DNA of 64,000 nucleotides from Candidatus Kirkpatrickella diaphorinae (GTDB lineage Bacteria; Pseudomonadota; Alphaproteobacteria; Acetobacterales; Acetobacteraceae): positions 732,001-796,000 of the forward strand of contig NZ_CP107052.1 of the NCBI RefSeq assembly GCF_025736875.1, written 5' to 3'. This document shows, in pieces, positions 4,901-32,209 of the stretch (its first letter is position 1; every line of letters starts with the position of its first letter). Below the pieces are notes generated by a model. The model ran no database searches and was not told the DNA's origin. It saw nothing but the letters and a program-made list of their open reading frames with translations. The position numbers and the translations under genes are program-made.

Positions 4901-6403
4901 ATGTCTGTGAATGAAGTCAATGCCGAAACTCAGGAATTTCAGGATGTTACGCCGAAGCAGGCTTTGCAAGCCGCTGAGGCGGCGGTGCATCATGTTGAGA
5001 TCTCCTCAAGCGCGAAGATCATGCTGGGCCTGACGGCCTTCGTCGCGGCAATTTGTGGGGGCCTTTACGGTTACGATACCGGCATTATCTCCGGCGCGCT
5101 GCTTCTCATTACGTCCGACTTCCAGCTTAATAGCGGTATGCAGGAGCTGGTGGCATCATCCATCCTGATCGGCGCGGTGGTGGGTGCCCTTGTTGCCGGG
5201 TCCATGTCCGAGAAATATGGGCGTCGTTTCACCGCAACCATTGTCAGCGCCGTATTTGTGCTGGGCGCCATCGCCTGTAGTTTCGCGCAGAGCGTCACGC
5301 AACTGATTATTTTCCGCGTTTTCCTTGGTCTTGCGGTCGGTGGATCGACGCAGGTTGTGCCCATGTATATTTCAGAACTCGCACCAGCGGGGCGGCGCGG
5401 CAATCTTGTGACGATGTTTAATGTCGCGATTGGCATTGGTATCCTGCTTGCCAACATCATCGGTTTCGCCGCGCGCGATGCGTGGGGTTGGCGGCCGATG
5501 ATCGGACTCGCAGCGATCCCGGCGGCTTTCGTCTTTCTCTGTCTACTCTTTCTGCCGCGCAGTCCCCGTTGGACGGCTGAAAATGAGGGCCTCAAATCGG
5601 CCATTGCTGAATTGAGTCGTATCCGCACGTCAAAAAAAGCGATCCTGCGTGAAATCCGTGAAATGCATGAAATCGCGGAAAGCACGGACCCGCTCGATAA
5701 AGGCTGGCGTGGCCTCGCCCAGCCCTGGGTGCGCCCCGCCGTTATCGCTGCTTTAGGTGTCGCCTTCTTCACGCAGGTGGGCGGGCTGGAAATGATGATT
5801 TATTATGCGCCAACATTTCTGCACGATGCCGGGTTTGGTAAAAACTCCGCCCTACTGGCCTCACTGGGTGTGGCCATCACTTATTGCATCATGACGTTCC
5901 TTGGATGTCTCACTGTTGACAAGATTGGTCGGCGTCGCCTCATGCTGATTACGGGGCCGATTTCCGTATTGAGCATGATCGGGCTTGGTGTTGTCTTCTC
6001 CATGCATCCGGCGGAAGGCAGCTTCGGGGCGTGGCTTGTGATCTTCTTCCTGCTCAGCTTCATGGCCAGTAATTCTATCGGTATTCAGATCTGCGGTTGG
6101 TTGACGGGTGCGGAGATGTTCCCGCTTTGTATGCGCGGCCAGGCGACAAGCCTGTTTGCGGCAACCTTATGGGGTGCGGACCTCCTCGTGACCATTACGG
6201 CTTTGACACTTGTTCAGCTCGTGACATTGGGCGACGCGATGTGGGTTTATGCGGCGGTCAATGTTCTGACAGTTCTCTTCGTATTCCGCTTCGTGCCGGA
6301 GCTTTCAGGTGCGTCGCTTGAAGATATTGAGTATGCGCTACGTAAAAAACGTTTCACGCCCCGCAAAGGCCATACACGCATCGTGGATGCCAGCGACGTT
6401 TAA
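4901..6403 (+). CDS. MFS sugar porter (sugar:proton symporter family)
   Basis: A 500-residue inner-membrane permease of the sugar porter family (relatives: GalP, AraE, XylE, GLUT). Signature elements are GLYGYDTGIISGAL after the first membrane segment, RVFLGLAVGGSTQVVPMYISE in segments 4-5, PRSPRW before the central loop, and CLTVDKIGRRRLML in the second half. The family's C-terminal PETKG is replaced by PELSG, a small departure. Twelve hydrophobic segments can be traced, with a soluble N-terminal tail of about 40 residues and a central loop at about 225-260. The substrate cannot be read from sequence. The next gene is a sugar isomerase, so a hexose or similar sugar is likely. Confidence 0.88.
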   Translation: MSVNEVNAETQEFQDVTPKQALQAAEAAVHHVEISSSAKIMLGLTAFVAAICGGLYGYDTGIISGALLLITSDFQLNSGMQELVASSILIGAVVGALVAGSMSEKYGRRFTATIVSAVFVLGAIACSFAQSVTQLIIFRVFLGLAVGGSTQVVPMYISELAPAGRRGNLVTMFNVAIGIGILLANIIGFAARDAWGWRPMIGLAAIPAAFVFLCLLFLPRSPRWTAENEGLKSAIAELSRIRTSKKAILREIREMHEIAESTDPLDKGWRGLAQPWVRPAVIAALGVAFFTQVGGLEMMIYYAPTFLHDAGFGKNSALLASLGVAITYCIMTFLGCLTVDKIGRRRLMLITGPISVLSMIGLGVVFSMHPAEGSFGAWLVIFFLLSFMASNSIGIQICGWLTGAEMFPLCMRGQATSLFAATLWGADLLVTITALTLVQLVTLGDAMWVYAAVNVLTVLFVFRFVPELSGASLEDIEYALRKKRFTPRKGHTRIVDASDV

Positions 6404-6424
6404 AAACCGGTCCTCACCGTTATA

Positions 6425-6470
6425 GATGGAGGCGGGTCGGTCATCAGCCGACCCGGTTCCCTCCGCCATC
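6425..6470 (+). terminator. GC-rich hairpin after the sugar porter gene
   Basis: GGGTCGG (6434-6440) pairs with CCGACCC around a 7-base loop, and outer arms GATGG (6425) and CCATC (6466-6470) can extend the structure across a bulge. It lies about 20 bases past the permease stop. No U-tract follows, so termination or attenuation ahead of the isomerase gene are both possible. Confidence 0.35.
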
Positions 6471-6568
6471 TTGTACGGTGTTACCGGGGAACTGCCCCCT
6501 GAAGTCTCTGTTGAATCCGTGACGCATCCGTCACATCGGGCCGCGTGCCGGTAACAGGACTGACTCAA

Positions 6569-7783
6569 ATGCAAATCGCGACGGAAGCGCATCGCCTCTG
6601 GCTCCTTAATCAAGGGCAGCGCCTGCTGGATTTTTCAAAAAATGCGCGCGTCGCGGACGGTTTTTGCGCATTGGACGGGATGGGGGAAAAATCGCGGAAG
6701 GCCGAAGCGGACGGTATATTAACCGCACGCATGACGCACAGCTTCGCGCTCGGCGCTCTTCTCGGCATTCCGGGATGTCATGCCATGAGCGCGCATGGTG
6801 TGGACTGCCTTCTGCACCACCTGAATGACCCCGATCACGGAGGGTGGCGGGAGAAACGCGCTGATATCGCGGGCCGGAAACAGGCTTATTATCACGCCTT
6901 CATCGCCCTTGCCGGGGCGACCTGCAAGGAAGCGCGCATCCAAGGCGGTGACCTTCTCTTTCAATCTGCGACACATATTTTAGAGACGCATTTCTGGAGC
7001 GAAACGGAAGGCGTCGTCTATGAGAGCTTTTCAGCAGATTGGCAGGATCGGGAGGATTATCGCGGGGCCAACGCCAACATGCACACGACGGAGGCCATGC
7101 TCGCCCTCTCCGCCGCGACAGGCGACATCAAATGGCTGCACCGCGCCGTGCGCATCCTCGAGCGCTTCGTGCATCACCTGTCGCGCCAGCATGATTATTG
7201 CATGGCCGAGCATTTTGACGCCGATTGGAATCTCCTGCCCGACTATAATATCGAGCGCAAAGCCGACCCGCTGCGTCCTTACGGCCTGACGCCGGGCCAT
7301 TTTGCGGAATGGGCGCATCTGACGCTCAAGGCGGAAGCTCATGCGATCGCAAAAATGGGGCGCGCGCCCGCATGGATGTGCCCTGATGCGGAGGGTCTTT
7401 TCCGCAGCGCGGTGGAGAAGGGCTGGTGCCATGAGGGGACAGGTGGCATCGTCTATACGCTTGATTGGGAGCGTCGCCCCTGTGTTACCTCACGCGCGCA
7501 CTGGGTGCAGGCGGAAACGATCGTGGCGGCGGACATTCTTTATCGCCGGACGGGCCATGAATATTACCGCGAATGGTATCAGAAACTTTGGGATTACGTC
7601 GATCTGACGATGATCGACCCCAAATATGGAAGTTGGTTCAATGAAGTCGATGCTGAAGGGGTGGCATCGGGCGAGATTTACCCGGGAAAGGCTGACCTCT
7701 ACCATGCCTTTCAATGCACACTGAGTCCCCTCCTGCCCGTTGCGGCAAGCCTCGCTGAGGCGATCTGGCTTTCCAAAGCGTAG
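6569..7783 (+). CDS. AGE-family sugar epimerase/isomerase (mannose/aldose-ketose isomerase-like)
   Basis: An (alpha/alpha)6-barrel enzyme of the N-acylglucosamine 2-epimerase superfamily, 404 residues. Family signatures are visible: NMHTTEAMLAL at 170-180, GHFAEW at 243-248 and YHAFQ at 378-382. His244 and His379 align with the two catalytic histidines known for YihS and related D-mannose isomerases. The start at 6569 has AGGA nine bases upstream; an upstream GTG at 6545 would add eight residues. It lies 165 bases behind the sugar porter on the same strand. I infer that it isomerises an imported aldose such as mannose or glucose to its ketose. Sulfoquinovose or N-acylglucosamine activity is less likely, given the absence of partner genes. 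Confidence 0.85.
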   Translation: MQIATEAHRLWLLNQGQRLLDFSKNARVADGFCALDGMGEKSRKAEADGILTARMTHSFALGALLGIPGCHAMSAHGVDCLLHHLNDPDHGGWREKRADIAGRKQAYYHAFIALAGATCKEARIQGGDLLFQSATHILETHFWSETEGVVYESFSADWQDREDYRGANANMHTTEAMLALSAATGDIKWLHRAVRILERFVHHLSRQHDYCMAEHFDADWNLLPDYNIERKADPLRPYGLTPGHFAEWAHLTLKAEAHAIAKMGRAPAWMCPDAEGLFRSAVEKGWCHEGTGGIVYTLDWERRPCVTSRAHWVQAETIVAADILYRRTGHEYYREWYQKLWDYVDLTMIDPKYGSWFNEVDAEGVASGEIYPGKADLYHAFQCTLSPLLPVAASLAEAIWLSKA

Positions 7784-7809
7784 CGGGCGCGGCGTGATCG
7801 GGCTTCGGC

Positions 7810-8529
7810 TTAGGGCAGAAGATGATCGATCTCGTCACTCTCGATCCGGTCATAGCCGGTTGAGCCGGGCGGTGCACCGGATGGCACGGAGGACTCGGTT
7901 TCGATCTGATAGAGGATCGCGCCTTTCTCTCCGATTTTTTCGGCGATAATCAGCGGGCCGGAGCGTGCTTTAAAGGCACGGCCGGAGACGCTCAGCGCGT
8001 CACCGACGTGAAATTTGTTGCCATCAGGAAAAGCAGCGGGGAAGCGGATTGTGACACCATCATCCAGCACGACACCCCCGACATCACCCTGACTTGTATG
8101 GAGAAGGCGCGCAATGCGTCCGTCACGATGCTGCCTCTGTGTGAGGGCCAGAGAGGGCATGTGCCCTGAAGCGCAGACCCAGCCCGCGCCCGATGAAACG
8201 GCAAAAGCGGCGATCATTTTGCTTTTGTCGGAAACGAGCCCTTTGACAGTTAAATTCTGCCCCGGCGTCAGGGAAACACCGAGAATATCGAAACCATCGG
8301 AAAGGATGACCTCCCTGCCATCCTTCAATATGACATTCCCCGCCCCGCCGGAGATATTCGGATAAACATCTTTTATCCTGGCCTTGACGGTTGGGAGGAC
8401 GCTGATATCAAAAATACATGAGGGCGACAAACGTTCAGGCGCTGCGTGGATGGTAGGCGCGATAATCAGCAGCGTCAGACCGACGATGCCATTTATCATA
8501 CACGTACTGATTTGCTTGTCCCTGCCCAT
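7810..8529 (-). CDS. exported protein of unknown function, possible OB-fold repeats
   Basis: A 239-residue protein not assignable to a named family. Residues 1-29 form a signal peptide (basic MGRDKQ, a hydrophobic core, and a cleavage site after IHA), so it should be periplasmic. The mature part has at least two similar beta-rich units: VKARIKDVYP...VILKDGREVILSDGFDI near 48-82, and GRIARLLHTSQGDVGGVVLDDGVTIRFP near 137-164. Each is followed by a 'PGQ/VGD xLxVxG' turn. This resembles the small OB-fold repeats of DUF5666-like exported proteins. It lies 34 bases downstream of purH on the same strand, so it may be co-transcribed. The purH link gives no functional clue. Confidence 0.7.
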   Translation of the reverse strand: MGRDKQISTCMINGIVGLTLLIIAPTIHAAPERLSPSCIFDISVLPTVKARIKDVYPNISGGAGNVILKDGREVILSDGFDILGVSLTPGQNLTVKGLVSDKSKMIAAFAVSSGAGWVCASGHMPSLALTQRQHRDGRIARLLHTSQGDVGGVVLDDGVTIRFPAAFPDGNKFHVGDALSVSGRAFKARSGPLIIAEKIGEKGAILYQIETESSVPSGAPPGSTGYDRIESDEIDHLLP

Positions 8530-8563
8530 AACCCCATCACGATCACGTTGATATTAAACGATT

Positions 8564-10144
8564 TCAGTGCCTAAAATGGCGCATCCCTGTCAGCACCATC
8601 GCGATCCCCGCTTTATCTGCCGCAGCGATCACCTCATCATCACGAATAGAGCCGCCCGGCTGGATGACGGCGACGGCACCCGCCGCAATGATCGCCTCCA
8701 ACCCGTCGGCGAATGGGAAGAACGCATCAGAGGCGGCCACGGATCCGACGGTCAATGCCGCGTCGGCACCGCTTAGGGATGCCGCGTCCTGACTTTTCCG
8801 GCCTGCGATACGTGCCGAGTCCAGGCGGGACATCTGCCCTGCCCCGATCCCCACTGTCGCACCCTCTTTCGCAAACACGATGGCATTTGACTTGACATGT
8901 TTCGCAACTCTGAAGGCGAAGAGAAGATCCCGAAGCTCCGCCTCTGTCGGCTTTCTGCGTGTCACAACTTTGAGCTGGTCGAGCGATACGCGGCCCGCAT
9001 CACGATCCTGAACAAGATACCCGCCCGCGACGGATTTAACCACGCGGCTCTGCGCCTGAGGCGCGGCCATGCCGCCCGTGATGAGGAGGCGCAGATTCTT
9101 TTTGGCGCGCAAAATGTCACGCGCCGCCGCATCCGCATCCGGTGCGACAATCACTTCCGTGAAAATACCCGCAATCTTCTCCGCCGTGGCGGCATCGAGG
9201 GGGCGGTTGACGGCAACAATCCCGCCGAAAGCTGAAACCGGGTCGCAGCGCAGTGCCAGGTCCCAGGCTTCGGAAAGGGTTTCCGCCATCGCGACGCCGC
9301 AGGGATTGGCATGTTTGACGATCACGACGGCGGGGCCATCAAACTCACTGACGGCTTCGAAAGCCGCATCCGTGTCATTTAAATTGTTATAGCTCAGTGC
9401 TTTGCCCTGAAGCTGTTCGGCCGTGGCAACGCCATTACGTGCTTCTGCCGTGGTGTAAAACGCAGCTTGCTGGTGCGGATTTTCCCCGTAGCGCAGGCTT
9501 TCCTGCAATGAGGCGGTGATGGTGAGCGTCTCCGGGAAGCGTGTGCCCTCCTGCCCCGCGAACCAATCGGCGATCATGGCATCGTAAGACGCTGTGTGCG
9601 CGTAAGCGGCCTGGGCCCAATGACGGCGCTGCGCCATCGTCGTCCCACCGGACGCCAGGGCGTCGATCAGGGCGTGATATTGCGACGGGTCCGTCAGAAC
9701 GACTACGTGCGCATGATTTTTTGCGGATGCGCGAATAAGGGCAGGCCCGCCAATATCAATATTTTCAATGCAATCTTCCGGCGAAGCGCCGGCACGCACT
9801 GTTGCGGCGAAGGGATAAAGATTGACGCAGACGAGATCAATCGGCGCAATCTGATGTTCGGCCATTTGGGCGACGTGCTTAGCATCATCGCGCCGACCCA
9901 AGATGCCACCATGTATCTGCGGCAGAAGCGTCTTGACGCGGCCATCCAGAATTTCGGGGAAGCCCGTATGCTCGGAAACGTCTTTCACCGCGATACCGAC
10001 CTTGCGCAGCGCATCTGCGGACCCGCCTGTCGAGAGGATTTCCACGTTCGCCCGCGTCAGCGCCTGGGCGAATTCAAGGAGCCCCGTCTTGTCAGAAACA
10101 GAAATAAGGGCGCGTCGAATGCTGAGGGGCGATGATGAGGACAT
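8564..10144 (-). CDS. purH: bifunctional AICAR formyltransferase / IMP cyclohydrolase
   Basis: Catalyses the last two steps of de novo purine synthesis, AICAR to FAICAR to IMP, in the cytoplasm. The 526-residue length is standard. The N-terminal cyclohydrolase domain (about 1-200) starts [13 protein letters not shown] and contains [16 protein letters not shown]. The transformylase domain carries [13 protein letters not shown] and [10 protein letters not shown]. It ends with the conserved [30 protein letters not shown]-type tail across residues 496-526. Together with purF and guaB elsewhere in the window it supports an intact purine pathway. Confidence 0.98.
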
Positions 10145-26830: not shown

Positions 26831-27994
26831 ATGACAGGCATGGTCCGGCTCGCAATCGCCCTCTTCCTCACCTACCTCGCTGTCGCCATGCCTCTGGCCG
26901 TCATTCCACCTTATGTAACGGGCTGGCCGGGTTACAGCACGTTTCTCGCGGGGGTCAGTGTCGGATGCTCGTTTTTCTCGACCCTTCTGACCCGCGGCCG
27001 CGCCGGACGGTTCTGCGATCATCATGGCGGCGACCATTCCATGCATCGCGGCCTGTTGCTCTATGCCATCGGGTGCTTTTGCTGCGCCCTGTCAGCGATT
27101 CCGGCGCTTCCCTTAAGCTTGCGCTTCGGCCTACTGATTTCAGGGCGGCTCATTATCGGCGTGGGTGAAAGCTACACCATGGTTGGTGTCCATATCTGGG
27201 GCATCGGGCTGGAGGGGCATGAGAGATCGGGGCGCGTCCTGTCCCTCACCGGGATGGCCATGTATGCCGCCTATGCGGTGGGCGGCCCGAGCGGCTTATG
27301 GATCTTTCATCACTGGAATTTCCTGACCCTCATGCTTCTCTGCATGGCCCTGCCCGGCCTTGGCTTCATCCTGACACGCGGCCTGCGCCATGTGCCACCT
27401 TCACAGGGTGAGCGACGCGCGTTTTTCTCTATCCTTTCCGCTATAAAATGGCATGGCGCGGGTGTTGCGCTGCAAGGTGTCGGGTTCGCCGTGCTGGGGG
27501 CTTATATTGCCCTCGCCTTTCATCATCGCCATTGGGATCATGGCGGACTTGGCCTGACATTTTTCGGGCTGGCTTTTGTCGCGAACCGCCTTCTTATCGG
27601 TTCCACCCCGGACCGTTTCGGCGGCCTGCCCATCGCTTTGGGGTCGCTCTTGGTGGAAGCTGCGGGACTGGCCTGTATTTCCGCCGCCGCGACGCCCGTC
27701 ATGGCGCTTTTTGGCGCGGCACTGGCAGGGGGTGGCTGTTCGATGGTCTATCCTGCTTTGGGGCGTGATGTGGTGCGTGTCGTCTCACCTGATCATCGCG
27801 CCCTCGCGCTTGGCGGGTTCGCGGCTTTCCAGGATGTCGCCTATGCTGTCACCGCGCCCATTGCGGGTTCGCTGGTTGATGGTTTCGGATATGGCACTGT
27901 TTTCATGCTGGCTGCTTTCTGCGCCACCATCGGCGCTATTATCGTCATTGGCCTGATGCTGCGCGAGAAATCGGGATCGAACCTGGCGGCCTGA
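26831..27994 (+). CDS. MFS transporter (YfcJ/YhhS-like)
   Basis: A 387-residue permease with 12 hydrophobic segments and no long termini. The first segments read LFLTYLAVAMPLAVIPPYV. The loop 2-3 motif has TRGRAGRFCDHHGG (motif A-like), and RLIIGVGESYTMVG follows in segment 4. This pattern fits the YfcJ/YhhS arabinose-efflux-like group of drug/sugar exporters. GAGGA precedes the ATG by seven to eight bases. It lies 154 bases after nadK and 149 before the TonB receptor gene. A role with the downstream receptor-kinase-channel set is possible but not shown. Confidence 0.85.
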   Translation: MTGMVRLAIALFLTYLAVAMPLAVIPPYVTGWPGYSTFLAGVSVGCSFFSTLLTRGRAGRFCDHHGGDHSMHRGLLLYAIGCFCCALSAIPALPLSLRFGLLISGRLIIGVGESYTMVGVHIWGIGLEGHERSGRVLSLTGMAMYAAYAVGGPSGLWIFHHWNFLTLMLLCMALPGLGFILTRGLRHVPPSQGERRAFFSILSAIKWHGAGVALQGVGFAVLGAYIALAFHHRHWDHGGLGLTFFGLAFVANRLLIGSTPDRFGGLPIALGSLLVEAAGLACISAAATPVMALFGAALAGGGCSMVYPALGRDVVRVVSPDHRALALGGFAAFQDVAYAVTAPIAGSLVDGFGYGTVFMLAAFCATIGAIIVIGLMLREKSGSNLAA

Positions 27995-28101
27995 AAAGCG
28001 TGGCGTCCCCGCATCATTTCGCACCGCAAACGCGTCGTGCGTTGAATCATCTTTACCTGCCACAAAAACACTTTTATCAGCGAAGGGCTACGGGGAGGGC
28101 G

Positions 28102-28130
28102 CTTCTGCGGCACTCATTTGGCAGAAGGGG
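28102..28130 (+). promoter_or_regulatory. hairpin sequestering the ribosome site of the TonB receptor gene
   Basis: CTTCTGC (28102-28108) pairs with GCAGAAG (28121-28127) around a 12-base loop. The 3' arm runs straight into AAGGGG (28125-28130), the only Shine-Dalgarno-like sequence before the ATG at 28144. The stem would partly cover it, suggesting translational control. The spacing to the ATG (13 bases) is long. Confidence 0.35.
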
Positions 28131-28143
28131 CTGTTGCTGCGTC

Positions 28144-30504
28144 ATGCGCCGGGACTATTTTGTGACGCGCCGATTTCTGCATCGCGCTGCCATTTTCACC
28201 CTTTATGGCCTGCCTCTGCATGCACATTGTGCTGAAAACGCCGCCGCCCGCCCGGAGGCGGAAACCATCAAAGTCAAAGCGTCGGCGCTGAATGACAAAG
28301 CGGATTTTGGTGAAGGGGGGCTCATGCGCCCCGTTTATGCGGCGCAGGCGACCAGTGTCGTCTCAAAACCTTTCATTGACACGCAGTCGCCAATTTCCTC
28401 CGCCTATCAACTTGTCAATAATCTGCCCGGGGCCAATGTCGCGGCGTCTGACCCTTTCGGCCTGTCTCCCTACACAAATGTGACGGTCAGGGGGCTGAAT
28501 AGCGACGCGCTTGGCTTTACGCTTGAGGGGACGCCACTCAACGACATCGCCTATTACGGCGCCTACCCCGCGCAATTCGCAGATGCGGAGAATTATCGCG
28601 CCATCGCCGTGACGCAGGGTGCGGCGGCGATTTCCGATCCCGTCCTCAATGCTGCGGGTGGGCTGATGGCGCTGACCTATCTCCAGCCCGCCAAAACCCC
28701 TGGTGGCACGGTCAATATCTCCTATGGCGCCTATGCCAATAGCCGCCAGTTTCTAAGGCTTGAAAGCGGGGAGATCGGCCATACTGGCGTCAGGGGATTT
28801 ATCTCCTACTCCCACACCACAGCGCATAACTGGCGCGGCCCGGGTGAGGATCGCCGCCAGCATGTCGACCTCAAATTCATCAAATCCATCCATCAACATT
28901 CGGATATATCCCTCATCGGCTCATGGAATCGCGCAACGTCGAGTTATTATCCGCAAGTGACGCTGGATGGCTGGCACGCTGACGGGATCGGCGGCAGCAA
29001 CGACCTCAAAGCCTGGTACGATGCGGGTCACACCGCGCAGGCACAGAATTATTACCGCCTGTGGGAAGCGCCGGAACAGACTTTCTACGCCGGTCTACCC
29101 AGTCACTTCACCCTGTCCGATCATCTGACCTTTGCCGTGACACCCTATGCCCAGGCCGCTTACGGGTCAATCGCGAGCGGCGCGACCCTTCCCGTGTCAG
29201 GGGTCTATAATGGCGTCATGCCCGTCAATGGCCATCTGCGCAACCTCAATGGTGATGGGGGTGACGCGGTCGTCCGGGCTAATGGCGTGCAGGAAAGTTA
29301 CCGCACCGGCTTCAACGCCCATCTCAGTCTCGAAACCGGGCGCAATAAGCTGACTTTTGGTTATTGGTATGATTATTCCGATGATCGCGAGGTGCAATCC
29401 TTCACGCCCGTCGGGTTGGATGGCCGCGCGCCGGATCTCTGGGCCCGCCGGAAAAGCGGCCTTGTCTTACTGCCTGACGGGCAGGCCCTTTACGGTAGCG
29501 CCTTCCACACAATCGGGCAGGTCAATGCGCTCTATATCAATGACCGGTTGTCGCTTTTCAGGGATAAAATGGTGCTGGAGGCCGGGTTCAAGGATGTGAT
29601 GTACGCGATCCGGGGGACAAATAATCTCCCCGGCCCACAATATCGCACGGGCGGGAGCTATCAGGTGCCGCTCCCCCGCATGTCGATAAAATATCATTTC
29701 CGCCCGGAACATCAGATTTTCGTAAACGTCACCACCAATTTTCGCACCCCTTCAAGCACGGCATTTTACGATTATTACGACGTCACTTCGGGGGCGGTCG
29801 TGACGGATGGGGCGCAGAAGCTGAATCCCGAATATTCGATTTCACAGGAATTAGGTTACCGTTATTTCGGCAAAAAGCTTCTGGGCAGTGTGACTTTCTT
29901 CAATTACAACTTCACAAACCGGCAGATAACCACCGAGATCTTCCGCTTCGGCGCGCCGGTGCAGACGACGGTGAATGCGGGCGGGCAGACATCGCGCGGC
30001 GTCGATGCTGAAATTTCGATGCGGCCTTATCATCACTGGAGTCCCTATATCTCAGCCGAGTATCTTCATGCGACGATTGATAATGATATCGTCGTCAATA
30101 ATGACCTCCTGCCGACGCGGGGTAAAATCGCGGTACGCAGCCCTGCCTTCCAGGCTTCTGTCGGCCTCTCTTATGATGATGGGCATGTTTTCGGGATGGC
30201 GACGGCCCATTATACCGGGCGGCAATATGCGAGCTTCATGAATGACGTTGCGATGCCGGGCTATATCACAGGCAATCTCGCGCTGGGCTATCGATTTGAC
30301 GATAAATTCCGGCTGAAATCACCGAGTGTCCGCGTAAACTTCACAAATATCGGCAATAACCACGTGCTTTCAGGCGTTTCAAGCGTGACCCTTGCCGGGA
30401 GAAACACAATCGGCCGGCGCGGCACCGTTATCGCGGGGAGTGACCCGCTATTTTACATCGGCAGCGGCTTCGCCGTGCTCTTCACAGCAGGTGCGGGGTT
30501 TTGA
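28144..30504 (+). CDS. TonB-dependent receptor of a putative vitamin-uptake operon
   Basis: A 786-residue outer-membrane transporter. The start at 28144 is chosen because a twin-Arg-containing but ordinary signal peptide begins there (MRRDYFVTRRFLHRAA, cleavage near AHCA); 48 further codons upstream lack signal-peptide character. The plug has a TonB-box-like ETIKVKAS near 39, SSAYQLVNNLPGANV and TVRGLNSDALGFTLEG. The barrel continues to a C-terminal Phe (AGAGF). The stop is overlapped by the start of a small-molecule kinase gene, itself overlapped by a PnuC-type channel gene. The receptor therefore probably imports the compound that these proteins move and phosphorylate. Confidence 0.9.
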   Translation: MRRDYFVTRRFLHRAAIFTLYGLPLHAHCAENAAARPEAETIKVKASALNDKADFGEGGLMRPVYAAQATSVVSKPFIDTQSPISSAYQLVNNLPGANVAASDPFGLSPYTNVTVRGLNSDALGFTLEGTPLNDIAYYGAYPAQFADAENYRAIAVTQGAAAISDPVLNAAGGLMALTYLQPAKTPGGTVNISYGAYANSRQFLRLESGEIGHTGVRGFISYSHTTAHNWRGPGEDRRQHVDLKFIKSIHQHSDISLIGSWNRATSSYYPQVTLDGWHADGIGGSNDLKAWYDAGHTAQAQNYYRLWEAPEQTFYAGLPSHFTLSDHLTFAVTPYAQAAYGSIASGATLPVSGVYNGVMPVNGHLRNLNGDGGDAVVRANGVQESYRTGFNAHLSLETGRNKLTFGYWYDYSDDREVQSFTPVGLDGRAPDLWARRKSGLVLLPDGQALYGSAFHTIGQVNALYINDRLSLFRDKMVLEAGFKDVMYAIRGTNNLPGPQYRTGGSYQVPLPRMSIKYHFRPEHQIFVNVTTNFRTPSSTAFYDYYDVTSGAVVTDGAQKLNPEYSISQELGYRYFGKKLLGSVTFFNYNFTNRQITTEIFRFGAPVQTTVNAGGQTSRGVDAEISMRPYHHWSPYISAEYLHATIDNDIVVNNDLLPTRGKIAVRSPAFQASVGLSYDDGHVFGMATAHYTGRQYASFMNDVAMPGYITGNLALGYRFDDKFRLKSPSVRVNFTNIGNNHVLSGVSSVTLAGRNTIGRRGTVIAGSDPLFYIGSGFAVLFTAGAGF

Positions 30505-31658
30505 CTGAGGAACACGCAAACCGTCAGTTCGGTGTCGATGGCCCGATAGCCCCCCGTATCTGGCCCGCCATGACAGAGGCGGAGAGAAGGCTGCTCATTC
30601 CCCATTACCCTTTTCTAAAAGATGCGCCGGAGATCAGCCACCATTCGCCGCGCCCTTTCTCCTCCGCCTGTATTTTCAGCGGCGCACCCGGTCGGTTTTT
30701 CGTTAAACGCCATGACCACCGGGTCAAAAACGAAGCCAGTCTGCGGGAGGAGCATCGCTTTGCCCGACATCTGGCGGGCCACGCCCTGCCCGTGCAGCCC
30801 TTCCTCAAAAATAAACAGGGGGAAACGGTCACGCGATGCGGCGATTGGGTTTATGAAATCACGGCGGCATCGCCTGACATCGATCTTTACCGTGATGTCC
30901 AATCATGGGAAGGGTGGTTCAATTCCGCTCAGGCCCATGCGGCCGGGCGTCTCCTCGCGCAGTTCCATGATGTGATGGCGAGTGACACCGCCCCGCCGCG
31001 TGTCGATCCTCAATTGGTCTCAAACATGGATTTGCTGCGCCGTGTCGATTTCGCATCGTCCCTCGATGAGGCTGTCGCTCATCTGACACCGGCAGAGAAT
31101 GGACTTCTCCATCACCCTTCCTATCAGCAGGCGCGGGCCGCGTTTCTAAAATTCCATGACGCGTTAAAACCCCTCCTGCCGCATCATAAACCATGTTGGG
31201 GCCATGGGGACTGGCATGGCTCCAACCTGATGTGGCGCGGTGAGGGAGAGGATGCCGTGCCGGTGTCCGTCTTTGATTTCGGCATGGCGGATCGTACCTC
31301 CGCCCTTTTCGATCTCGCCGTCGCGATTGAACGCAGTATGGTCAGCTGGCTGGCCCCCGATATGAGTCAATGGCAGGTGCGTTACGATGCGCTTAGGGCC
31401 TTCCTGCGCGGTTATGAGTCGCAACGGCCGCTTTCCGCAACGTCACGCCAGGCGCTGGCCGCTATGCTGCCCCTTTGCCACATCCATTTCGCCCTCAGTG
31501 AATATCGATATTTCGCGTCACTTCTCCATGATGAACATAGTGCGCAGGTGGCGTTTGAGAAATATTTCATCGGCCATATGAAATGGTTTCAGACGCCGCC
31601 AGGTCAGGCGCTCCTGCAATATATCGCGCAGGGTGAAGAACCGGGTGTCACATCATGA
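30501..31658 (+). CDS. APH/choline-kinase-fold small-molecule kinase
   Basis: A 385-residue cytoplasmic phosphotransferase of the aminoglycoside phosphotransferase/choline kinase superfamily. An ATP-site Lys lies in FFVKRHD (Lys69), the catalytic loop HGDWHGSN at 235-242 matches the Brenner motif HGDxxxxN, and DFG is at 259-261. The likely start is a TTG whose last two bases begin the stop of the TonB gene (TTGA overlap), so translation is coupled; an ATG at 30570 is the alternative. Between an outer-membrane receptor and a PnuC channel, it most plausibly traps an imported alcohol-bearing vitamin by phosphorylation, as thiamine kinase ThiK does. It need not be a resistance enzyme. Confidence 0.85.
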   Translation: MTEEHANRQFGVDGPIAPRIWPAMTEAERRLLIPHYPFLKDAPEISHHSPRPFSSACIFSGAPGRFFVKRHDHRVKNEASLREEHRFARHLAGHALPVQPFLKNKQGETVTRCGDWVYEITAASPDIDLYRDVQSWEGWFNSAQAHAAGRLLAQFHDVMASDTAPPRVDPQLVSNMDLLRRVDFASSLDEAVAHLTPAENGLLHHPSYQQARAAFLKFHDALKPLLPHHKPCWGHGDWHGSNLMWRGEGEDAVPVSVFDFGMADRTSALFDLAVAIERSMVSWLAPDMSQWQVRYDALRAFLRGYESQRPLSATSRQALAAMLPLCHIHFALSEYRYFASLLHDEHSAQVAFEKYFIGHMKWFQTPPGQALLQYIAQGEEPGVTS

Positions 31659-32209
31659 GCCCGATTGAATCCGCAGGTGTCCTGCTCAGCGCGGGTGGTG
31701 TGTTCCTGGAGACGCAACGCGTCGTGCTGTGCTGGCCCATCAACATCATGGCGGCTGGCTGCTATTTTTACATATTTGGTGAGCAGCATCTTTATGCGGA
31801 TGCGGCGCTTCAGCTCCTCTTCATCAGCCTGTCCCTCTATGGGTGGGTGATGTGGCGGAGAAAGCCGCCTATTGCATCCGGTCCGACGCCGGCGCGAAGA
31901 TGGTTCATAGTGCAATGTTGCGGCATGCTTTTTGCGGGGCGTCTGCTCGGCGTGGCGCTGTCGCGTTGGTCAAGTGATCCTGCACCTTATGCGGATGCGA
32001 TGCTGACAGCGTCCAGCATTCTGGCAACTTACTGGATGGCGCAACGTCTCCGGCAGGCATGGCTTGTCTGGATTATCACAAACGGCGCCTATGTCGTGCT
32101 CTTCCTCTCGCGGGGGCTGGATGCCACGGCAGCGCTCTATGGTGGCTTCATGCTGCTCGCCATTTATGGCTGGTTTAAATGGGGCTTCAATCGTGACGTC
32201 GCGACATGA
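31655..32209 (+). CDS. PnuC-family facilitated transporter (possibly thiamine, PnuT-like)
   Basis: A 184-residue inner-membrane protein with about seven hydrophobic segments, the PnuC/SWEET-like layout. The diagnostic stretch runs WPINIMAAGCYFYIF (27-41), then YADAALQLLF (48-57) and LYGWVMWRRK (61-70). PnuC-family channels move nicotinamide riboside, riboflavin, thiamine or deoxynucleosides by facilitated diffusion and rely on intracellular phosphorylation for trapping. Its ATG overlaps the kinase stop by 4 bases (ATGA). The adjacent kinase is not NadR-like, which argues against nicotinamide riboside. Thiamine is my preferred guess from known pnuT gene clusters with TonB receptors. Confidence 0.87.
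   Translation: MSPIESAGVLLSAGGVFLETQRVVLCWPINIMAAGCYFYIFGEQHLYADAALQLLFISLSLYGWVMWRRKPPIASGPTPARRWFIVQCCGMLFAGRLLGVALSRWSSDPAPYADAMLTASSILATYWMAQRLRQAWLVWIITNGAYVVLFLSRGLDATAALYGGFMLLAIYGWFKWGFNRDVAT

Follow-up and report, generated by a model that had tools for sequence, protein, structure and literature searches.

Which compound is served by an operon that joins an outer-membrane receptor, a small-molecule kinase and a PnuC-family transporter? The question is raised by a locus of Candidatus Kirkpatrickella diaphorinae, a member of the Acetobacteraceae with a genome of 2.18 Mb in one contig, of which we analyzed a stretch of 64,000 nucleotides (here the window). The original prediction was that receptor, kinase and channel form a unit for uptake and trapping, with thiamine the leading guess for the substrate, and we conclude that the locus is very probably an operon for the uptake and trapping of thiamine (vitamin B1). 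The support for thiamine comes from relatives and not from the window itself: the conserved linkage of the three genes, the TPP riboswitches of relatives and gaps in the thiamine pathway.

Layout of the operon

The locus comprises a leader and three genes, with the following coordinates in the window:

27995..28143, + strand: non-coding leader of 149 nt, separating the MFS gene upstream from the receptor gene
28144..30504, + strand: TonB-dependent outer-membrane receptor, 786 aa, proposed thiamine receptor (Pfam TonB_dep_Rec_b-barrel and Plug)
30501..31658, + strand: APH-fold small-molecule kinase, 385 aa, TTG start, proposed thiamine kinase (Pfam APH)
31655..32209, + strand: PnuC-family inner-membrane transporter, 184 aa, proposed PnuT-type thiamine facilitator (Pfam NMN_transporter, PF04973)

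These coordinates and Pfam families agree with the predicted receptor, APH-fold kinase and PnuC channel overlapping by four bases at both junctions. At the first (TTGA) the receptor stop TGA at 30502-30504 lies over the kinase start TTG at 30501, and at the second (ATGA, 31655-31658) the kinase stop lies over the pnuC start. In the window none of the three frames is interrupted. The receptor matches Pfam TonB_dep_Rec_b-barrel with E 1.6e-31, as well as Plug, and the kinase matches Pfam APH with E 7e-22. Upstream of ATG 28144 the receptor frame stays open in the window; the leader of a same-genus relative (G046) holds an in-frame stop, which excludes GTG 28000 as the receptor start. Because of this stop, and because the residues encoded from 28144 onward resemble a signal peptide, ATG 28144 is, as judged from sequence, the correct start.

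The transporter matches Pfam NMN_transporter (PnuC) with E 1.3e-43 and scores above the cut-off of NCBIfam TIGR01528 (PnuC). Its AlphaFold model (pLDDT 89) has seven helices, with PnuC 4QTN as the best Foldseek match (TM 0.77), and the protein is thus a member of the PnuC/PnuT family, with the seven-helix PnuC fold.

Linkage and TPP riboswitches in relatives

When the kinase alone was used as the query, 13 loci were recovered, from Acetobacter, Gluconobacter and Brytella; because the receptor lay directly before and PnuC directly after the kinase in all 13, the arrangement is not due to chance. Among named relatives, those in Acetobacter and Gluconobacter are the closest. Of the 13 loci, 7 share the four-base overlap of kinase and pnuC, as do Novosphingobium and Sphingomonas; the receptor/kinase overlap is far less conserved. 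Among sampled Acetobacteraceae, the kinase was present in 29 of 200 genomes (18 of 102 genera), and most of 27 further Acetobacteraceae loci contain the whole unit. Sampling across the phylum found the kinase in 14 of 398 genomes, in five further families, and at the 12 new loci the receptor was always near the kinase and PnuC was near it in 11. Alpha-, beta- and gammaproteobacteria all carry the unit, as seen in Novosphingobium, Sphingomonas, Burkholderia and Acinetobacter. The gene order is receptor-kinase-PnuC in Acetobacteraceae, Sphingomonas and Novosphingobium, receptor-PnuC-kinase in Burkholderia, and kinase-receptor-PnuC on Acinetobacter plasmids and at several of the phylum-wide loci. 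Since linkage is kept while order changes, the three proteins likely share a function. The same three genes, which the original prediction had proposed to look for in other genomes, thus co-occur there, and refutation through their separation failed.

Two mobilizable Acinetobacter plasmids (L025 and L026) carry the whole kinase-receptor-PnuC unit at 4971-8998, and by this route thiamine uptake may pass between strains. The kinase of Acetobacter persici (L015, 2280-3453) is split over two reading frames in the contig. Two genomes, G049 and G080, have kinase and receptor together with no PnuC detected. At the G080 locus (L087, 1315-5084) kinase and receptor stand without a detected PnuC; at the G049 locus (L086, 1-5128) genes for an ABC-transporter ATPase and permease lie before the kinase, and an NMT1/ThiY-like sequence follows the receptor. 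Because of these ABC genes and the lack of a detected PnuC, the inner-membrane step appears replaceable, with an ABC transporter taking the place of PnuC in G049. In another genome (G001) a TPP riboswitch precedes the gene of a related receptor, and an NMT1/THI5-like binding protein comes next (L085, 797-4156); this genome has ThiG and ThiE without ThiC, and its kinase lies on another contig beside a permease-like gene.

The operon is also tied to thiamine through its regulation in relatives. At 17 relative loci a TPP riboswitch, at or above the Rfam gathering score and on the same strand as the operon, precedes the receptor gene within about 130 nt; two weaker, sub-threshold matches precede the receptors of G049 and G080. 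The 17 comprise two Gluconobacter loci (L003 and L014), the Sphingomonas and Novosphingobium loci (L023 and L024), loci of eight Acetobacteraceae genomes (L066-L071, L080 and L082) and five from two further families (L099-L103). Because the Acetobacteraceae genomes tested have only one or two TPP riboswitches each, chance is not a serious explanation for this linkage. Shared riboswitches, for which the original prediction had suggested a search, are therefore found in relatives, with none detected at the window operon: the window gave no Rfam match at the gathering score, and a TPP riboswitch in the operon's leader was rejected, as nothing was detected in 27900-28400 even up to E = 10. The host's own two TPP riboswitches stand before thiC and before thiO-thiS-thiG, the first two genes of the latter being what we take, from reading of the sequence, to be thiO and thiS. 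The Burkholderia loci of the unit also have no riboswitch, in agreement with a 2013 survey in which Burkholderia were without TPP-regulated transporters (PMC3766115).

Two further regulatory features were observed. Four loci without a TPP riboswitch (L073, L074, L076 and L079) share, upstream of the receptor, an inverted repeat (ATATGAGA-CTGC-TCTCA) within promoter-like sequence, which is perhaps a different operator in the riboswitch's stead. In G025, G079, G030, G022, G085 and others, the TPP riboswitch before thiC is longer and falls below the Rfam cut-off (35-47 bits), which suggests a divergent variant in many Acetobacter-like genomes.

Proposed thiamine salvage and competing readings

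ThiL uses thiamine monophosphate (TMP) as its substrate. Among kinase-bearing Acetobacteraceae tested, ThiL was found in 28 of 28 and thiamine pyrophosphokinase (TPK) in 0 of 28. With no TPK, and with ThiL needing TMP, imported thiamine requires a kinase that makes TMP. The host likewise has ThiL and no TPK; it has only two other APH-fold proteins, which by reading of their sequences and neighbors resemble homoserine kinase and fructosamine kinase, the ThrB-like protein being a separate gene beside ispH. We propose that the TonB-dependent receptor would bring scarce thiamine over the outer membrane, and that the PnuT-type protein would, as its family suggests, facilitate its diffusion through the inner membrane. 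The kinase would then trap thiamine by converting it to TMP, which would feed ThiL for conversion to TPP. The kinase step is strongly indicated, as the analysis found no other enzyme that would phosphorylate thiamine. ThiC, ThiG and ThiE are all retained by the host, so thiamine import is not required there.

ThiC is absent from 6 of the 28 kinase-bearing Acetobacteraceae. Three of these six (G032, G070 and G135), auxotrophs by gene content, also have no real ThiG match and no more than a weak ThiE-like match, the sort that in prototrophs accompanies a strong one, and in each the sole TPP riboswitch of the genome stands on the receptor-kinase-PnuC operon. The operons of G032 and G070 are intact (L070 and L080); the argument leans on these two because the G135 receptor reads in three frames. 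As G032 and G070 have no means to join precursors, import of thiamine itself would help them.

The kinase belongs to a family whose catalytic residues are fixed: K69, E84, H235-x-D237-x-H239-xx-N242 and D259-F-G are invariant in 26 of 26 relatives. The original prediction had favored a ThiK-like enzyme. Against a profile of the 26 members, however, E. coli ThiK scored -0.2 bits (with E 0.1 when four sequences were searched), compared with 42 bits for the host homoserine kinase and 31 for SrkA, and we rejected the kinase as a ThiK homologue. Profile matches in the PDB were to YihE/SrkA and homoserine kinase only, and the score for model NF003558 was 42.7 bits against a cut-off of 271. In sequence, then, the kinase is nearest to homoserine kinase and SrkA. 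Its structural model (pLDDT 81) fitted small-molecule kinases best, with matches to N-acetylhexosamine kinase, YtaA, homoserine kinase and YihE, and it also matched antibiotic kinases; since these matches span small-molecule and antibiotic kinases, it is sequence and not fold that separates them.

Residues of the transporter give a mixed signal. W127 and Y146 are near-universal in 53 aligned family members and are not found in E. coli PnuC. At position 143, 48 of the 53 have D and five have N; the five include the window protein, its same-genus relative and some Burkholderiaceae. E. coli PnuC, of the nicotinamide riboside (NR) type, also has N here. Compared with the family and E. coli PnuC only, the window transporter thus has W127 and Y146 like its TPP-linked relatives and N143 like the E. 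coli protein.

These observations allow three other readings of the operon's substrate and kinase to be weighed. That it salvages thiamine precursors, with imported hydroxymethylpyrimidine (HMP) or thiazole phosphorylated by the kinase, seems improbable. TPP riboswitches do control precursor transporters too (PMC3766115), and receptor or kinase relatives in G001, G049 and G080 adjoin NMT1/ThiY-like or ABC genes, of a type that has also been linked to precursor uptake. Yet G032 and G070 keep the operon as their only TPP-controlled locus without ThiC, ThiG or a strong ThiE, a setting that disfavors precursor salvage. Uptake of NR, or of another nucleoside or vitamin, is a little less probable again: the automatic annotation 'nicotinamide riboside transporter PnuC', the TIGR01528 score and N143 speak for it, but the kinase is not of the NadR type, the family residues W127 and Y146 are missing from E. 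coli PnuC, and relatives from several families carry TPP riboswitches. It is barely credible that the kinase is an antibiotic-resistance phosphotransferase that came to lie in the operon by chance. Some relatives are labelled 'aminoglycoside phosphotransferase' and antibiotic kinases share the fold, but the kinase's closest sequence similarity is to homoserine kinase and SrkA, and its linkage to a TPP-regulated uptake operon is conserved. Moreover, an NCBIfam search to E 0.1 matched it to no curated antibiotic-phosphotransferase model, so that this search gave no sign of the clustering with true resistance enzymes that would have overturned the original prediction.

A further reading, compatible with a thiamine role for the family, concerns the window's genus alone: there the operon could be a relic under relaxed selection, or could have drifted to another substrate. 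We regard this as possible but unlikely. The operon lacks a riboswitch, its host is prototrophic and its transporter has N143; in G046 (L084, 354-5137) frameshifts appear in the MFS gene, the receptor and the kinase, from either decay or assembly error. Comparison of the window with G046, in which codons within the shifted stretches were compared by alignment position, gave a dN/dS of 0.15 for the receptor; kinase and PnuC both stood at 0.23, and the neighboring gtrA at 0.08. All of these are nevertheless well under 1, and the window keeps three open frames and intact catalytic residues. The 149-nt leader is 95% identical to that of G046 despite a difference of about 22% at synonymous sites, which shows that it is constrained. 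A structured RNA leader was rejected, because the predicted fold was weaker than those of shuffled sequences (z = +1.67), with no detectable RNA family or stable fold. The thiamine role is therefore less certain for the window's own copy than for the family.

Known systems and meaning for the family

The claim that such a unit is not a standard textbook system was overstated, because the same plan is found in the TPP-controlled OMthi-pnuT-tnr3 operon of Bacteroidetes (PMC5613172). In gut Bacteroidetes OMthi, pnuT and tnr3 usually form one operon under a TPP riboswitch, and deletions support thiamine transport by both the OMthi and the pnuT transporters (PMC5613172). As here, a TonB-dependent receptor and a PnuC-family transporter are combined with a thiamine-phosphorylating enzyme. 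The enzyme differs, however: the pyrophosphokinase Tnr3 makes TPP directly, whereas here an APH-fold kinase would act with ThiL and there is no TPK. The riboswitch of that operon is likewise absent from the window's copy. The mechanism is thus of a known kind, and differs in the type of kinase and, in some relatives, in an ABC transporter in place of PnuC.

PnuT is a thiamine facilitator (Jaehme et al. 2018, cited in PMC8552899). The window transporter is likened to PnuT by membership in the PnuC family and not by PnuT sequence, and the same logic of facilitated diffusion plus trapping is expected. E. coli ThiK shares the broad APH fold and the proposed reaction, thiamine to TMP and then ThiL, but is about 100 residues shorter, has no significant profile similarity and lies outside any transport operon. 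Type II homoserine kinase (ThrB) and SrkA/YihE are the nearest sequence relatives within the APH superfamily, but the kinase scores far under the cut-offs of these families. Searches for published work on acetic acid bacteria found no mention of the operon.

Databases label members of the kinase family 'phosphotransferase' or 'aminoglycoside phosphotransferase'. Taken jointly, two proposals are probably correct: that the kinases form a thiamine kinase family of their own, spread over alpha-, beta- and gammaproteobacteria and Acinetobacter plasmids and misannotated as aminoglycoside phosphotransferase, and that this family is the principal route by which salvaged thiamine reaches ThiL-dependent TPP synthesis where TPK is lacking, with an ABC transporter replacing PnuC in some lineages. 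For ThiL-dependent bacteria without TPK, imported vitamin B1 is of use only with a thiamine kinase. The characterized thiamine kinase, ThiK, has no sequence homology to the operon's kinase family, which is a strong candidate for this role. The thiamine reading would correct the annotations 'aminoglycoside phosphotransferase' and 'nicotinamide riboside transporter', and the operon would help to predict which acetic acid bacteria rely on environmental vitamin B1.
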